Shown: in pieces, positions 2,726-50,558 of the stretch
How the letters are laid out: every line of letters begins with the position of its first letter
Position numbering within the stretch: position 1 is the stretch's first letter
From: Desulfovibrionales bacterium
GTDB lineage: Bacteria > Desulfobacterota > Desulfovibrionia > Desulfovibrionales > Desulfomicrobiaceae
Direction: 5' to 3'
DNA length: 50,558 bases
Assembly: GCA_012729655.1 (NCBI GenBank)
Contig: JAAYCS010000082.1
Span: 1-50,558 of the forward strand
Translations under genes and position numbers: made by a program
The notes under the pieces: model-generated
What the model saw: only the letters and a program-made list of their open reading frames with translations
The model's database searches: none
Told to the model about the DNA's origin: nothing

Positions 2726-3143
2726 CGGAAAAATTTCCTATCATTTCAGTTCTATATATTCCGATAGCAACGCGCCACCAGCCCATTGCCGGGCGTCATG
2801 GCCTGTGATGAAACATCGATTTCAGGCAGGCCGTCTCCGCATATCCAACAATCCCCGCCTTTTCCTCTTCTCTTGGCACGCTAGCTGCTTTGCTTTGGAC
2901 GCCGGCAAAAAACGGACTCAGCGTGGCTCCATGGTTTTGCCTGCAGGGGGAAAATGGACGTGAAAACACGTGAACGGGACTGGAGCAGATCCCGCTATCC
3001 CAGATGCAGTCCTGTTGCGAAGTCATCCTTCCTCCATCATCATCCATTCTCATTCCATATTGTGCATCTCTCAGCATAGTACACTTTCATTGTAGATTCT
3101 CGCATAGAATAACGTGAATTGAAATCATTCAAGAGAATACACC
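2726..3143. other. intergenic region, regulatory
   Basis: 418 bp without a convincing gene; open frames here have no ribosome-binding site or family resemblance. It becomes markedly AT-rich towards 3144. It contains a sigma-54 promoter candidate (2873-2889) and two small palindromes upstream of it, 2727-2738 (GGAAAAATTTCC) and 2809-2824 (TGAAA-N6-TTTCA), either of which could bind an activator. No U-tract terminator is visible after the TPR gene. Confidence 0.5.
2873..2889 (+). promoter_or_regulatory. sigma-54 (-24/-12) promoter candidate
   Basis: TTGGCACG at 2873-2880, then CTAG, then CTGC at 2885-2888. GG and GC are separated by exactly 10 bp as sigma-54 requires; the -24 element is a perfect consensus and the -12 element differs at one position (CTGC for TTGC). 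Transcription would start near 2900 on the + strand, giving a leader of about 245 nt before the methyltransferase at 3144. Confidence 0.55.
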
Positions 3144-3878
3144 ATGAACAGCATTGAAAATAGATGTTACGTTTGCGGAAATAATGATAATTTCCATACG
3201 CAAAATGGGTTCAGCTTGAGAGAGGCATGCTGTCTTGCTTGCGGAGCGAGTAGACGAACCAGCGATCTTGCCCGATGCATCATTCATGAATTCGGTGAAC
3301 ATGACTGCCTTTCACTTCGCCAATACATTCCATCCATACCCGAATTGAAAATCTATGAGGCCCAGGCAGATGGTGCTTTGCACAAGGTACTCATGGATCT
3401 TCCAGGGTATGTGTGCTCTGAATTCCTCGTCGGAGTAGCTCCTGGCGCCTTGTCCAAAGACGGTGTGCGATGCGAAAACCTCGAGGCGTTGACCTTCCCC
3501 GACAATTCCTTTGATCTTGTTGTCACACAGGATGTTTTTGAGCACATCGCCGAGCCGATTGTAGGGTTTCGGGAAATTGCCCGGGTGTTGCGGCCCGGCG
3601 GCAAGCATATCTTCACCGTGCCCGTTCACGAGGGACGCAAAACCGTTGTCCGGGTCGACACACAATCCGGAAAACCTGTCTTTTGTCTCCCCAAGGTGTA
3701 TCACGGTGACCCCCTGCGCCCTTCAGGTTGTTTGGTCTACACGGATTTCGGGGACGACATCCCACAGATTCTTGGACCGTTGGGATATGTTACGAAATCT
3801 GTCTCCTACGAAAGATTCTACACACCATCTGAAATTCCATCCGTCATGGACGAAGCATCCTGGAAACGTTATGAATAA
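3144..3878 (+). CDS. class I SAM-dependent methyltransferase with N-terminal zinc-ribbon-like cysteines
   Basis: A 244-residue protein of the methyltransferase type 11 group. Cysteines at about residues 8, 11, 30 and 33 (CYVC and CLAC) form a probable zinc site. The methyltransferase part shows FPDNSFDLVVTQDVFEH, then REIARVLRPGG, then FTVPVHEG. The usual glycine-rich motif I is not visible, so SAM binding may be atypical or activity reduced. Base composition is more AT-rich than upstream genes. The ribosome-binding site is weak (AAGAGA). The large glycosyltransferase gene follows almost immediately, so a role in glycan modification is inferred; the acceptor is unknown. Confidence 0.8.
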   Translation: MNSIENRCYVCGNNDNFHTQNGFSLREACCLACGASRRTSDLARCIIHEFGEHDCLSLRQYIPSIPELKIYEAQADGALHKVLMDLPGYVCSEFLVGVAPGALSKDGVRCENLEALTFPDNSFDLVVTQDVFEHIAEPIVGFREIARVLRPGGKHIFTVPVHEGRKTVVRVDTQSGKPVFCLPKVYHGDPLRPSGCLVYTDFGDDIPQILGPLGYVTKSVSYERFYTPSEIPSVMDEASWKRYE

Positions 3879-45909: not shown

Positions 45910-46260
45910 TTGAATTCTTTAATCATTACCATACACGTCATTGCCTGTGTCACCCTTGTGGTCCTTGTCCTGCTCCAGTCCGGCAAGGAAGGCATGGGGG
46001 TCATTTTCGGCGGTGGCGGCGGGTCCCTGTTCGGATCCTCCGGCGCCGGAAGCCTGCTCAGCAAACTGACGGCAGGTGCGGCGACCGTGTTTTTCCTTAC
46101 CTCCATGGTCTTCACCTACATCAGCACTCAGAAGCACACCGCCCCCAGGGAATCCATCGTCCTGGACATGCCTGTGAACCAGGCCCCGGCAGGGCCGGCA
46201 ACCGCCCCGGCGCAGGAGCAGAACGCCCAGCAGCCCGCAGGCCAGGAAAAATCACAGTAA
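45910..46260 (+). CDS. secG: protein-export membrane subunit SecG
   Basis: Accessory subunit of the SecYEG translocon. A 116-residue protein with two membrane helices (about residues 3-22 and 52-72) joined by the conserved loop VLLQSGKEGMGVIFGGGG, followed by an alanine/glutamine-rich tail longer than in E. coli. It begins with TTG, supported by AGGAGG 8 nt upstream; no ATG occurs in a suitable position. The position after tpiA is common in bacteria. Confidence 0.93.
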   Translation: MNSLIITIHVIACVTLVVLVLLQSGKEGMGVIFGGGGGSLFGSSGAGSLLSKLTAGAATVFFLTSMVFTYISTQKHTAPRESIVLDMPVNQAPAGPATAPAQEQNAQQPAGQEKSQ

Positions 46261-46354: not shown

Positions 46355-46439
46355 GTCGAAGTGGTGGAATTGGTAGACACGCTATCTTGAGGGGGTAGTG
46401 GGGTATCCCGTGGGGGTTCGAGTCCCCCCTTCGACACCA
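46355..46439 (+). tRNA. tRNA-Leu (anticodon GAG)
   Basis: 85-nt class II tRNA with encoded CCA. Acceptor arms GTCGAAG and CTTCGAC pair perfectly. The D-loop contains AATTGGTAGA, the anticodon stem is CTATC/GGTAG with loop TTGAGGG (anticodon GAG at 46389-46391), the long variable arm forms GGG/CCC, and the T arm is GGGGG-TTCGAGT-CCCCC. Reads CUC and CUU leucine codons. A terminator follows at once, and beyond it the sequence changes character, as is common at island insertion sites. Confidence 0.97.
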
Positions 46440-46778: not shown

Positions 46779-46820
46779 ACCGAGAAAAAAGACGTTTCCA
46801 CCATTGCGATAGCAGGTCAT
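46632..46820 (-). CDS. small ORF translationally coupled to sigma-54 activator
   Basis: 62 codons beginning [20 protein letters not shown]. The ATG overlaps the activator's stop as ATGA, a classic coupling arrangement. No membrane helix longer than a short hydrophobic stretch (FFLGSSGL) is seen and no family is recognised. The end matches a decayed inverted copy next to the tRNA, so the ORF could also be a repeat remnant rather than a gene. Confidence 0.35.
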   Translation of the reverse strand: MTCYRNGGNVFFLGSSGLSVRGSMGLGLSALAKDGAPAFEFYHSEESATKQSRFSVNEDAPV

Positions 46821-49800
46821 GGTAAACTCTTTTTGAGACCAAACTTGCGTAATTTCGCGTAGAGCGTAGAGCGTTTGACGCCAAGGATCTGTTCCGCGCC
46901 GCCAGGACCGATCACCTTGCCCTGGGTTACCTCCAGCACATGCTTCATATATCGGATCGTCAGTTCCTCCACTGTGGGGAAATCCGCATAGAACGTCTTG
47001 AACTCGTTGCTCTCCTCAGGCTGGGACTCCTGTCTGCGCTGCCCCAACAGCAGAAGATCCAAAGGGCCTCCAGTATTCAGAATAACTGAACGTTCCACCA
47101 CGTTTTTCATCTCCCGGATATTGCCATGCCAAGGGTAATGCTTGCATTTTTCGACTACTGTTTGATCCAATGGGGCAAAATGGCGTCCATATCGCGTGCT
47201 GAACTGTTCAATAAACAACTTCAGCAGCCCTGGAATGTCATCTTTGCGCTCACGCAACGGCGGTATCGTGATGGGGATGACGGAAACACGATAGTAAAGA
47301 TCTTCTCTAAAACGTCCTTCCTGAACCTCATCCCACAAATTTTTGTTCGTTGCGGCGATCAGGCGGAAATCCGACTCGATATTTCGCGTCCCTCCCACCC
47401 GCATGAAAGTATGCTCCTGCAGGACGCGTAGCAACTTTACTTGAAATGACAAAGGGATTTCCGCCAGTTCATCGATGAAGAAAGTCCCATTGTTCGCCAG
47501 TTCGAACAGGCCAGGCTTCTGCCTGTCAGCTCCGGTAAAAGCGCCTTTTTCATGGCCGAAAAACTCGCTTTCAAATAGATTTTCCGGGGTGCTGGCAGGG
47601 TGGACGGGAATGAAAGCACCTGTTCTGCCACTGAACTCATGAATCCGTCTGGCCAAGACCTCCTTCCCCACGCCGGTTTCACCAAGAATCAGTATGGTTG
47701 CATCGGACGCAGCAGCATGACGGGCCTGTTCCAGCGTTCTACGAAATCCGACCCCATCGTAATACTTCATGGCGGAATCATATGGCATGGAGAATTCGAT
47801 ATCGCCCATTTGCTGCAGATTACGCGTGCGAACCATGTTCATCCGGGACAGAATCTTCAGTTCGCGCTCCATCGCTCGATGAAGACGCTTTTGCGCCTCT
47901 GCATCCATGGACACGAACGCGCCGGCAATATGGCTACTCTCCATGAAGAAACCATGCGTGCCTTCTCCGCAATTGGAAATCCTTAGACGGAGAGAAACCT
48001 TTTCCTGCGTGCAGGACAGCAGGCAATCCGGAGTACCGGGATACGCCAACTCCTGAAGCCGTGAAGCATACGTCTGGGAGTCAAATTCCTGAGCCTGGAC
48101 ATTGCAGCCAAGTACATACCCCGCCTTGCCGTCCGGAAGTAGCCTACACAGGACAGCGCGCTCAGCCCCCATTTCGCGCTGTACGGCATTGAGCAATGCA
48201 CCTATCTGCGCCTCAACAGGCAGTGCGGGCCCAATATTTCCAATGAGGTTGAAGCAGCTTTCCAGACAGTCCGCCACCGAAGCCGGAAAAACATGTCCCT
48301 GCCATGGCATAAGATGCACAAAAGCATTGGCGGGTTGCAGCGTTGTTGATGCAAAATCCGCCTGCGCCGACACCTCCAGCTTTTCGGCCTCTGCAACCCG
48401 GCCGCACCGTTTCAGCAGCGGCACAAGAAGCAGGGCGCTTCGGGCGGCCTCGCGCCTATCTCCACAACTGCGAAACGCCTCATGACTACTACGGAGCAGG
48501 CTTATCCCGTTCTCGACATCATCCCCGGCAAGCCGAAGCGCCTTCAGCCTAAAGGCCATGCCGTGGAGATGCCTGTTCTGTCTGCCAAGCACATTTTCTA
48601 TTTCTTCATCTAGTCGATAGCCGGGGATGGGGGGCAAGCCCTTCGCCTCATAACTCGCCAGAAGCTCCAGCACCCATGTCGCCGTGTAGGCAAACCGCCC
48701 TATTCCATGTCGAAAACGCGAACGCATGCACTCCATCATGATGCGGTGCGAAACTTCAAGCTTGTCGGATTGGGCATGATGGAGTGCCAGAGCACGCCAA
48801 GCCCAAAGAAAGAGTTTGGGAGAGGATTCGGTATCCACGCAATCAATCACGGCGGACAGATACTCCAACCCCTGTTCTGTAATTCCCATCTGCAGAAAAT
48901 GTACAGCTAGCAAGATCTTCATCCACAGAATTTTATGCCTGTCTCCGCGTGCCTGCGCTTCGTGCAGGGCACTTTCGCAAATTCCTATACTTTGAGCATA
49001 CTGGCAAAGTCGGCTTGCTGCCGGAGCCATGTACAACGGATACATTTCATTGAAATACATACAGTTGAGCATCTGCGGACAATTATGCGCGAGATCGAAG
49101 GCAGAGTAGCACGCACGAAAATCTCCCCGCGCGTAGTAAAGAAAGGACAAAAAGTAGCTGACCTGTCCCTCCATGTCGGCATCATCGAGCACTTTGATGG
49201 CGTTGAGCCCCTGTTCAAGCAAACTGTTCAGGCTTGTTGGATCTTCCACTCCGGAGAGAATTTCCAGGCAGCCTCCCACAAGATTGATCAGAGCCTGGGC
49301 CCGCTGATCCCCCAGCATCTTGGCTACGCAGTGCGCCCGTTCCGAGAGCGCATGCGCCGCAGTCATACACACTCCCAGCGAAAAAGCGTCGCTCTGAGCC
49401 ATAAGGATTACACTGACATAGTGACGTTTCTCAAGATCGCTCATGCTTCCATACGGACAGTCTTGCAGGCGGTGCACCAGCAGTTCAAGACAGATTGCCG
49501 CCCCGCTAAGATGCGAAGCAACTATCAACCGTTGCAAAAGCGTCTGCAACAGGACGCAGGCTTCGAAAACACGCGAGTCGGCAAGCAGGACAAGGGTGCG
49601 TCCCGGAAGATCATCCTCGCGCGGGAAATATTTCTTGAATCCGCCGACCAGTTCCTGATTGGACGAGGATGCCGCCAGAAGCCAGTGCGTTTGTTCCTCG
49701 TCACGTTCAGCAATTCCGAATTCAACCATGTCGTGGAGCAGACTGTTCTGCGTTTCGAGTGACAAGCCAAGAAACTGGCTAAGAGAGGCCGTAGTTAGTC

Positions 49801-49858
49801 CATTCGGAAATTCTCTAAGAAGCAATAGGGTTCGGAACGCGTCGTAGTTAAATGACAT
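46817..49858 (-). CDS. sigma-54-dependent activator with MalT-like TPR and GAF sensor region
   Basis: A 1013-residue enhancer-binding protein. Residues about 18-62 look like a winged helix, about 90-520 form helical TPR-like repeats as in MalT-type regulators (without an NTPase domain of that class), and about 545-690 look GAF-like. The AAA+ domain has Walker A GETGVGKE near residue 722, the sigma-54 contact loop GAFTGA near 771, Walker [11 protein letters not shown] and the arginine-finger region. A Fis-type HTH ends the protein ([23 protein letters not shown]). AAGGAG lies 7 nt before the ATG. It is divergent from tctC, whose upstream region has a matching -24/-12 promoter. Confidence 0.92.
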
Positions 49859-49871
49859 GACATGGCTCCTT

Positions 49872-49890
49872 CAGTTTTTTCTAAAAACTG
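49872..49890. promoter_or_regulatory. candidate activator-binding palindrome
   Basis: CAGTTTTT-TCT-AAAAACTG, a perfect 8-bp inverted repeat. It lies about 110 bp upstream of the -24/-12 promoter, a normal distance for an enhancer site. It also abuts the activator gene's own ribosome-binding site, so binding could repress the activator gene. Confidence 0.55.
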
Positions 49891-49990
49891 GAATTTTGCC
49901 AAATTAAGAAAAATTTCTAAATTAAGGAAACATTTTTTTCAATTTTTTTATAATATACTATATTTAAAAGATATAATTATTTATTTTCTC

Positions 49991-50007
49991 TTGGAACATT
50001 TTTTGCT
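49991..50007 (+). promoter_or_regulatory. sigma-54 (-24/-12) promoter candidate for tctC
   Basis: TTGGAACATTTTTTGCT: GG at 49993-49994 and GC at 50005-50006 with 10 bp between. The only important mismatch is A for C after GG. Transcription should start near 50018, leaving a leader of about 177 nt. The divergent gene encodes a sigma-54 activator, which strengthens the call. Confidence 0.75.
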
Positions 50008-50194
50008 GATTCGAAGGAAAGACCGCGCACGATGTGGCGAGGCCTGAAACAGGGCATGCGGTCTCCGAGACATTCGGCTTCTCGGAAAACTGTGACACGA
50101 GATGGCGCCGGGCGAGTCGGCATCACTCGAAACGCAGGTGATAATGGCTGAAAAATGCTCACCGTCATCCTCAACCCTCAAGGAGTAATGTATT

Positions 50195-50558
50195 ATGCGC
50201 CGCATACTGCTGAGTCTCATGGCTTTTTGCATTGCGTTTGTATTCGTTTCTGCTCCGGCACAGGCCGAGTATCCGGAACGCCCTGTCACCGTCGTTCTCG
50301 GCTTCGCCGCCGGTGGAGCCACGGATATTATGGCACGCGCCTTGGCTGATCTCCTGTCCAAGGAACTGGGAGACACCTTCATCGTCAAAAACGTCACTGG
50401 CGCCGGCGGCACCATGGGCGCAGCCGAACTCGCCAAAGCCAATCCGGATGGCTACACTCTAGGCTATTTTCCGGTTGGTACCATGGCCATCCAACCCAAT
50501 CTTCGTAAGTTGCCTTACAATTGGGATGAGTTCACACCGATTAGCATGGTTTCTGTCA
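50195..50558 (+). CDS. tripartite tricarboxylate transporter solute-binding protein TctC (partial)
   Basis: First 121 codons of a Bug/TctC-type periplasmic binding protein; it runs off the window. The signal peptide (residues 1-24, MRRILLSLMAFCIAF, cut after AQA) leads into YPERPVTVVLGFAAGGATD, the hallmark of the family, then VKNVTGAGGTMGAAELAKA. The family captures carboxylates for TctA/TctB uptake. AAGGAG lies 9 nt before the ATG at 50195; the nearer ATG at 50188 is out of frame. Genes for TctB and TctA are expected just beyond the window. Confidence 0.93.
   Translation, partial: MRRILLSLMAFCIAFVFVSAPAQAEYPERPVTVVLGFAAGGATDIMARALADLLSKELGDTFIVKNVTGAGGTMGAAELAKANPDGYTLGYFPVGTMAIQPNLRKLPYNWDEFTPISMVSV

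Follow-up and report, generated by a model that had tools for sequence, protein, structure and literature searches.

The window analysed here is the whole of contig C62 (50,558 nt; JAAYCS010000082.1 of assembly GCA_012729655.1) of a Desulfovibrionales bacterium, whose draft genome of 2.84 Mb comprises 226 contigs and is 88.6% complete. At the right end of the window the gene of a sigma-54 activator, hereafter the regulator, and tctC, encoding the binding protein of a tripartite tricarboxylate transporter (TTT), stand divergent and head-to-head, and the contig end falls inside tctC (Table 1). This pairing of a sigma-54 activator with a TTT uptake gene had been proposed in a preliminary description made from the sequence, and is borne out by matches to PF00158 and PF03401. 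We describe the domains of the regulator, the divergent promoter, its candidate operators and the operon that the regulator probably controls, and compare them with other members of the regulator's family.

Table 1. Features at the right end of the window and the evidence for each.
Feature	Position	Strand	Evidence or remark
C-terminal Fis-type helix-turn-helix	46832-46966	-	PF02954 below cut-off; recognition helix the same as in the Mailhella relative
Regulator gene (P0001), sigma-54 enhancer-binding activator	46817-49858	-	1013 aa; open reading frame and full-length homologues with the same region order
Sigma-54 AAA+ domain with lid, residues 705-951, GAFTGA intact	47006-47746	-	PF00158, PF25601
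GAF-like domain, residues ~526-682	47813-48283	-	Second AlphaFold2 model, pLDDT 66.5; Foldseek
TPR-like alpha superhelix, residues ~84-505 (~420 residues)	48344-49609	-	AlphaFold2, Foldseek, TPR_12 in family
N-terminal winged-helix-like region, residues ~1-61	49676-49858	-	AlphaFold2 and weak profile matches
19-bp palindrome, CAGTTTTTTCTAAAAACTG	49872-49890		Overlaps operator candidate 1, centred 5 bp away
Operator candidate 1, TTCTAAAAACTGGAA	49879-49893		Centre 107 bp from the -24 GG
Operator candidate 2, TTCTAAATTAAGGAA	49915-49929		Centre 71 bp from the -24 GG
-24/-12 sigma-54 promoter, TTGGAACATTTTTTGCT	49991-50007	+	Shuffles; same sequence type in the Mailhella relative
Predicted untranslated leader, ~177 nt	50018-50194	+	Start placed near 50018 from the -12 element
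tctC, TTT binding protein, cut by contig end	50195-50558	+	PF03401, 4.1e-13

The regulator has the domain order winged helix, tetratricopeptide repeat (TPR) superhelix, GAF, sigma-54 AAA+ and Fis-type helix-turn-helix (HTH), the second half of which is well supported. Sigma54_activat (PF00158) matches residues 705-863 with an E-value of 2.2e-61 and the AAA lid (PF25601) residues 869-951 with 3.4e-18, and both the GAFTGA motif and a Walker A motif (GETGVGKE) can be read in the translation. The Fis HTH profile PF02954 reaches 14.5 bits at residues 991-1006 against a cut-off of 22; NtrC-type profiles and chains align through residue ~1006-1011, and the region is conserved in the family alignment. 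With a sigma-54 AAA+ domain carrying GAFTGA and Walker motifs and a Fis-type C-terminal HTH, the protein is by sequence a bacterial enhancer-binding protein (bEBP), one predicted to act on the -24/-12 promoter beside it. The GAF domain before the AAA+ domain that characterises group 3 bEBPs is recognised by fold only.

The winged helix, TPR and GAF assignments are supported by fold prediction and family profiles, none of the three giving a Pfam match in the regulator at E <= 1. An AlphaFold2 model of residues 1-690, built from three sequences (mean predicted local distance difference test, pLDDT, 59.5; predicted template modelling score, pTM, 0.41), has a winged-helix-like start, about 20 helices at 84-505 and then a low-confidence alpha/beta region. 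The predicted elements of the first ~61 residues are helices 5-16, 23-30 and 34-46 and strands 50-52 and 59-61, with pLDDT 69-88 by block, and this part has weak profile matches to winged-helix regulators (best E 0.0045). Foldseek matched the helical region to LGN, NprR, Rap and a STAND TPR protein, all weakly, with query template modelling (TM) scores of 0.26 or less and root mean square deviations over 10 among the matches listed; TPR_12 was matched in 14 of 23 family members scanned. When residues 515-690 were modelled separately, the top Foldseek match was the GAF domain of Aquifex NLH1 (E 9.4e-5, TM 0.52), and that of NifA was matched as well (E 6.4e-4), while Pfam gave no GAF match in the regulator or in the 23 family members scanned. 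The front end of winged helix, TPR and GAF that the preliminary description had read here is an unusual architecture, as it said, and a predicted one.

MalT and other STAND regulators combine a winged helix next to a TPR superhelix with a STAND NTPase and a LuxR HTH. The regulator resembles them in a predicted winged helix adjoining a TPR superhelix and in its proposed inducer sensing, but has neither a STAND NTPase nor a LuxR HTH above cut-off. AAA_16 (E 0.093) and nSTAND3 (E 0.13) match just the sigma-54 AAA+ domain, so that a STAND NTPase was not recognised; Pfam finds no LuxR-type HTH at the C-terminus, which is Fis-like. Membership of the MalT family was rejected on these two grounds. The profile TPR_MalT matched 3 of the 23 family members (E <= 0.01), the one score shown being below the curated cut-off, and gave no Pfam match in the regulator itself, whose TPR fold is a predicted one. 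From the earlier label 'MalT-like' there remains the TPR superhelix next to a winged helix.

Promoters were scored on a simple scale built on the -24/-12 consensus. The element TTGGAACATTTTTTGCT scores 14.5, a value that 400 dinucleotide shuffles of the gap between the two genes never reached; on both strands of the 50.5 kb just two sites score at least 14.5, this one included. The other, TTGGCACGCTAGCTGCT at 2873-2889 (+), is upstream of ORFs at 3144 and 3879 that look by eye like methyltransferase and glycosyltransferase genes. The promoter had been predicted beforehand and stands, and the 177-nt leader predicted with it agrees with the start placed from the -12 element; AAGGAG at 50180-50185 precedes the tctC start.

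The promoter beside the regulator gene is a non-random one, and real DNA provides a stronger control than the shuffles. Among the 38 family loci with enough DNA, 27 (window included) have a divergent promoter scoring at least 14, against 11 of 204 control regions upstream of other genes at these loci (Fisher 1.7e-18, paralogue kinship ignored). By shuffles, 28 of the 38, again with the window, have a divergent promoter at p <= 0.02. A set of 15 previously unused regulators, made up of 14 newly fetched ones and L057 (L numbers are our handles for loci), yielded 9 with a divergent promoter at p <= 0.03; two of the set, L118 and L119, share 91% identity.

The operon very probably runs beyond the window. 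Two TctC matches were found in the genome, one on contig C43 and the cut copy at the end of C62, and two TctA matches, one on C43 and a copy cut at the very start of contig C88. The latter contig (6850 bp) has the gene order tctA, short-chain dehydrogenase/reductase (SDR), aldehyde dehydrogenase, thiamine pyrophosphate (TPP) enzyme and dctP. Its products are 80% (SDR), 88% (aldehyde dehydrogenase), 79% (TPP enzyme) and 82% (DctP) identical to those encoded by the operon that diverges from the regulator gene in Mailhella sp. RGIG2144, a member of the same order, Desulfovibrionales, and of a different family within it. On the split TctC and TctA copies and this comparison together, C88 very probably continues the tctC operon; with TctC in the window and TctA at the start of C88, TctB would fall in the gap between them. 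The locus is therefore probably not the self-contained unit it had been taken for. The Mailhella aldehyde dehydrogenase scores above the cut-off for the CoA-acylating methylmalonate-semialdehyde subfamily. For the TPP enzyme the nearest matches are acetolactate-synthase-like enzymes and related carboligases, and since these matches fall below the NCBIfam cut-offs shown we leave the pathway substrate unnamed.

Within 297 genomes the closest relative of the window's TctC (66%) is that of an uncultured Desulfovibrio (L036/L078), beside another family regulator that is 44% identical over residues 221-1009. There the genes encode a partial aldehyde dehydrogenase, a TPP enzyme, TctC, a 3-hydroxyacyl-CoA dehydrogenase-like protein, TctB, TctA and an SDR. 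At L036:8444-9000 the regulator's first ~220 residues and the upstream gap are missing, and the tail of an aldehyde dehydrogenase gene on the opposite strand runs straight into what remains of the regulator gene, which points to a deletion or an assembly chimera. The Mailhella operon contains a second sigma-54 promoter, with three operator-like sites, at L035:10920-11050; no second sigma-54 promoter was found in the matching gap of C88. On C88 the stretch L166:5593-5854, which lies between the TPP gene and dctP, resembles by eye a C-terminal scrap of an IS3-type transposase. The second TTT locus of the genome, on C43 (L167; TctC and TctA matches), has a different sigma-54 AAA+ activator just upstream.

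Of 297 genomes of the order, 28 contain relatives of the regulator's first 690 residues by a single-sequence search (E <= 1e-6), and a profile search found the family in 37 of 348 (E <= 1e-20), scoring at most three candidates per genome and so undercounting paralogues. In a sample of 375 genomes of the phylum, 43 contain broader relatives (E <= 1e-15), and a match was found in 1 of 15 other genomes of the same genus. The source genome itself has a second member on contig C200 (L074), its N-terminus cut by the contig end. Neighbour genes were called by codon usage. A transporter is among the first five divergent genes at 23 of the 34 relatives' loci with called divergent genes; the preliminary description had named neighbours unrelated to transport in most homologues as the outcome that would speak against it, and the opposite was found. 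For this count the Pfam/NCBIfam result of one representative was extended to its BLAST cluster, and L041, whose neighbours there rest on a wrong ORF, was counted as having no transporter. Among 88 divergent genes from 28 loci the transporter families were CitMHS (10), Na_sulph_symp (7), MFS (6), SSF (3) and DctM, DctP, TctC and Glt_symporter (2 each), and the enzymes included amidohydrolases (9), FAD_binding_2 flavoproteins (5), arylsulfotransferases (3) and glycyl-radical enzymes (2); these counts leave out 9 loci and come from the 25 of 71 matched families shown, and related families overlap.

Taken together we consider the regulator to be, with a probability of roughly 80%, a one-component sigma-54 activator of an operon for uptake and degradation of a hydroxy- or oxo-acid. 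The Fis-type HTH would hold it on two tandem sites upstream of the divergent -24/-12 promoter, and a small-molecule inducer, for which the substrate or a product of the pathway is the likeliest candidate, would act on the TPR and/or the GAF part and free the AAA+ domain. The regulator would then reach the promoter by looping, and its AAA+ ring would open it. Transcription from this promoter would include tctC and, very probably, tctB, tctA and the genes of the SDR, the aldehyde dehydrogenase, the TPP enzyme and dctP. The aldehyde dehydrogenase would be of the CoA-acylating methylmalonate-semialdehyde type, and the operon as a whole would take up a hydroxy- or oxo-carboxylate and break it down oxidatively. 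Of this picture, the sequence itself shows the gene layout, the promoter, the AAA+ domain, the HTH and the divergent promoters at most family loci examined. The operators, the front-end domains and the continuation on C88 come from comparison or prediction, and the action of an inducer, the activation and the type of substrate are inferred.

Instead of a small molecule the TPR front end might sense a protein partner, for instance a cognate enzyme or a transporter subunit, in the manner of protein-bound bEBPs. We regard this as unlikely, even though the Foldseek matches are mainly to peptide- or protein-binding TPR proteins (LGN, NprR and Rap), since the one-component layout beside widely different catabolic operons fits substrate sensing and a GAF-like domain is predicted in the regulator as well. 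The preliminary description had suggested the loaded TctC as a ligand of the TPR region. TctC begins with a strongly hydrophobic, signal-peptide-like segment of the export type (19-residue hydropathy 2.4), and the most hydrophobic 19 residues of the regulator, from residue 111, average 1.7 and overlap the predicted TPR helices; for these reasons a direct contact is improbable.

As for where an activator would bind, two tandem TTCY-N7-GGAA sites upstream of the promoter are, by comparison with relatives, better-supported candidate operators than the 19-bp palindrome singled out earlier. Two sites within one mismatch of TTCC-N7-GGAA in this region are matched by 9 of 5000 shuffles; this is the fairer test, as the TTCY-N7-GGAA pattern was written after the window sites were seen. 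The window as a whole contains 39 sites of the TTCC-N7-GGAA type with at most one mismatch. The Mailhella relative, whose recognition helix is identical to that of the window's regulator, has TTCCATATTTTGGAA 62 bp before its first promoter and TTCCCTATTTTGGAA, TTCTTTATTTGGGAA and ATCCCTATTTTGGAA at 106, 91 and 72 bp before its second, to be compared with 107 and 71 bp in the window.

When all 4-mer dyads with spacers of 0-14 were scanned in the upstream regions of the family, TCCA-N5-TGGA came out on top, in 8 of 30 regions against 0.13 expected. The set had been chosen for promoters: the near-copies L052, L055 and L063, the loci with poor promoters L036, L042, L046, L060 and L066, and L074, which has no upstream DNA, were dropped, and the site of L035 does not count towards the 8, as it falls beyond the stretch scanned. 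Perfect TCCA-N5-TGGA occurs at 9 of 38 family loci against 3 of 203 control regions (paralogue kinship ignored), and multiple sites, perfect or with one mismatch, are spaced ~18-39 bp apart, for example at L039, L041 and L058. Perfect sites accompany the recognition helix RSTLY (10 of 16, against 1 of 17 with another helix; Fisher 8e-4, kinship ignored). This count dropped the copies L052, L055, L063, L067 and L119, promoters scoring below 13 and members with no readable HTH; L111 (RSTLY helix, promoter p 0.16, no site) was removed by hand, and counting it in gives 10 of 17. The previously unused members lend the candidate operator moderate support.

The palindrome CAGTTTTTTCTAAAAACTG is exactly where it had been reported, with a measured distance to the promoter of 100 bp instead of 110 bp. 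It is quite improbable that this palindrome is the real enhancer, with the TTCY-N7-GGAA sites as mere by-products. Its 8-bp arms are perfect and its distance to the promoter is suitable, but shuffling the whole gap gave palindromes as good in 55 of 400 cases, and shuffling the gap's AT-rich part did so in 376 of 1000. Moreover, in the two promoter regions of the Mailhella relative the nearest counterpart has 6 mismatches of 16, yet the TTCC-N7-GGAA sites are there. As an enhancer the palindrome was therefore rejected, being neither above chance nor conserved in the nearest relative. That the regulator acts solely on remote targets, the divergent promoter being served by another activator, is very hard to believe: there are 28 matches to the sigma-54 AAA+ domain across the genome and some family loci have no divergent promoter, but divergent promoters are far commoner at family loci than in controls and the operator class tracks the recognition helix.

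Several observations weigh against a substrate-responsive activator of the adjacent operon. Divergent promoters are missing at 10 of 38 family loci (p <= 0.02) and from 6 of the 15 previously unused regulators (p <= 0.03), and none of the checked transporter clusters is present at 11 of 34 relatives' loci. Perfect TCCA-N5-TGGA is confined to 9 of 38 loci; each of the window's two sites misses one conserved base and neither is perfect, and perfect tandem sites occur in just 2 of the 15 previously unused members, one of which, L057, is 89% identical to the training member L058. C62 and C88 are unjoined in the assembly, with ~1.2 kb missing by comparison with relatives. Four homologous TPP loci in two other genomes have no match to the regulator's N-terminus and no sigma-54 site scoring at least 14.5, and two of them have another sigma-54 activator nearby; therefore not every such operon is run by this type of regulator. 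Finally, between the window's genome and Mailhella, which belong to two families of the order, identity is 54% for the regulators and 79-88% for the operon enzymes. This difference could reflect fast change of the regulator or transfer of the operon.

Elsewhere near the regulator, a tRNA gene at 46355-46436 (+) is the sole Rfam match in the window at gathering score. It sits between an ORF at 45910-46260, secG-like by eye, and the 3' end of the regulator gene.

Comparison with described systems places the regulator near known activators in part of its layout. A review of bEBPs tabulates as regulatory domains RR/PRD, PAS/V4R/ACT, GAF or none, and its text never uses the term 'TPR' (PMC7175178). 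As in the group 3 members NifA, NorR and FhlA treated there, a GAF-like domain directly precedes a GAFTGA-bearing AAA+ domain in a one-component protein with a Fis-type HTH; unlike them, the regulator adds an N-terminal winged-helix-like region and ~420 residues of TPR-like helices. According to Kazakov 2015 (PMC4641369), D. vulgaris has two one-component activators whose long N-terminal regions have an unknown mode of sensing. One of them, DVU0151, carries GAFSEA with no annotated Fis HTH; it lies divergently to a sigma-54 transport operon, and some of its orthologues have a winged-helix match. By that description, and not by sequence, DVU0151 resembles the regulator in being a single-component sigma-54 activator whose long N-terminal region is conserved and whose gene has a divergent transport operon, while the regulator differs in its GAFTGA motif and Fis-type HTH. 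The closest counterpart compared is the Mailhella regulator (L035/L077), which is 54% identical, has the same recognition helix and is divergent from SDR, aldehyde dehydrogenase, TPP enzyme and DctP genes. In contrast to the window, its locus has no tctCBA between the promoter and the SDR gene and has the second sigma-54 promoter inside the operon. Searches of open-licence papers turned up no title or abstract opening about a TPR-bearing sigma-54 activator.

The regulator is ordinary in outline, a one-component activator beside its own operon, and unusual in its sensor. A wider proposal, on which we are nearly evenly divided and which we put forward tentatively, is that it represents a new sensory class, in which a winged helix and a TPR superhelix, resembling the sensing half of STAND proteins of the MalT type, have been added to, or have replaced, the usual receiver, PAS or V4R input. 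This class would have multiplied in Desulfovibrionales into substrate switches that typically stand head-to-head with catabolic operons, their operator specificity set by the short Fis recognition helix. For the poorly described uptake and catabolic operons of the order, the analysis assigns a probable inducer-sensing regulator, a promoter and an operator. It also offers a code from recognition helix to operator that can be checked from one paralogue to the next, and TPR superhelices would be a further input besides those known for sigma-54 activators.

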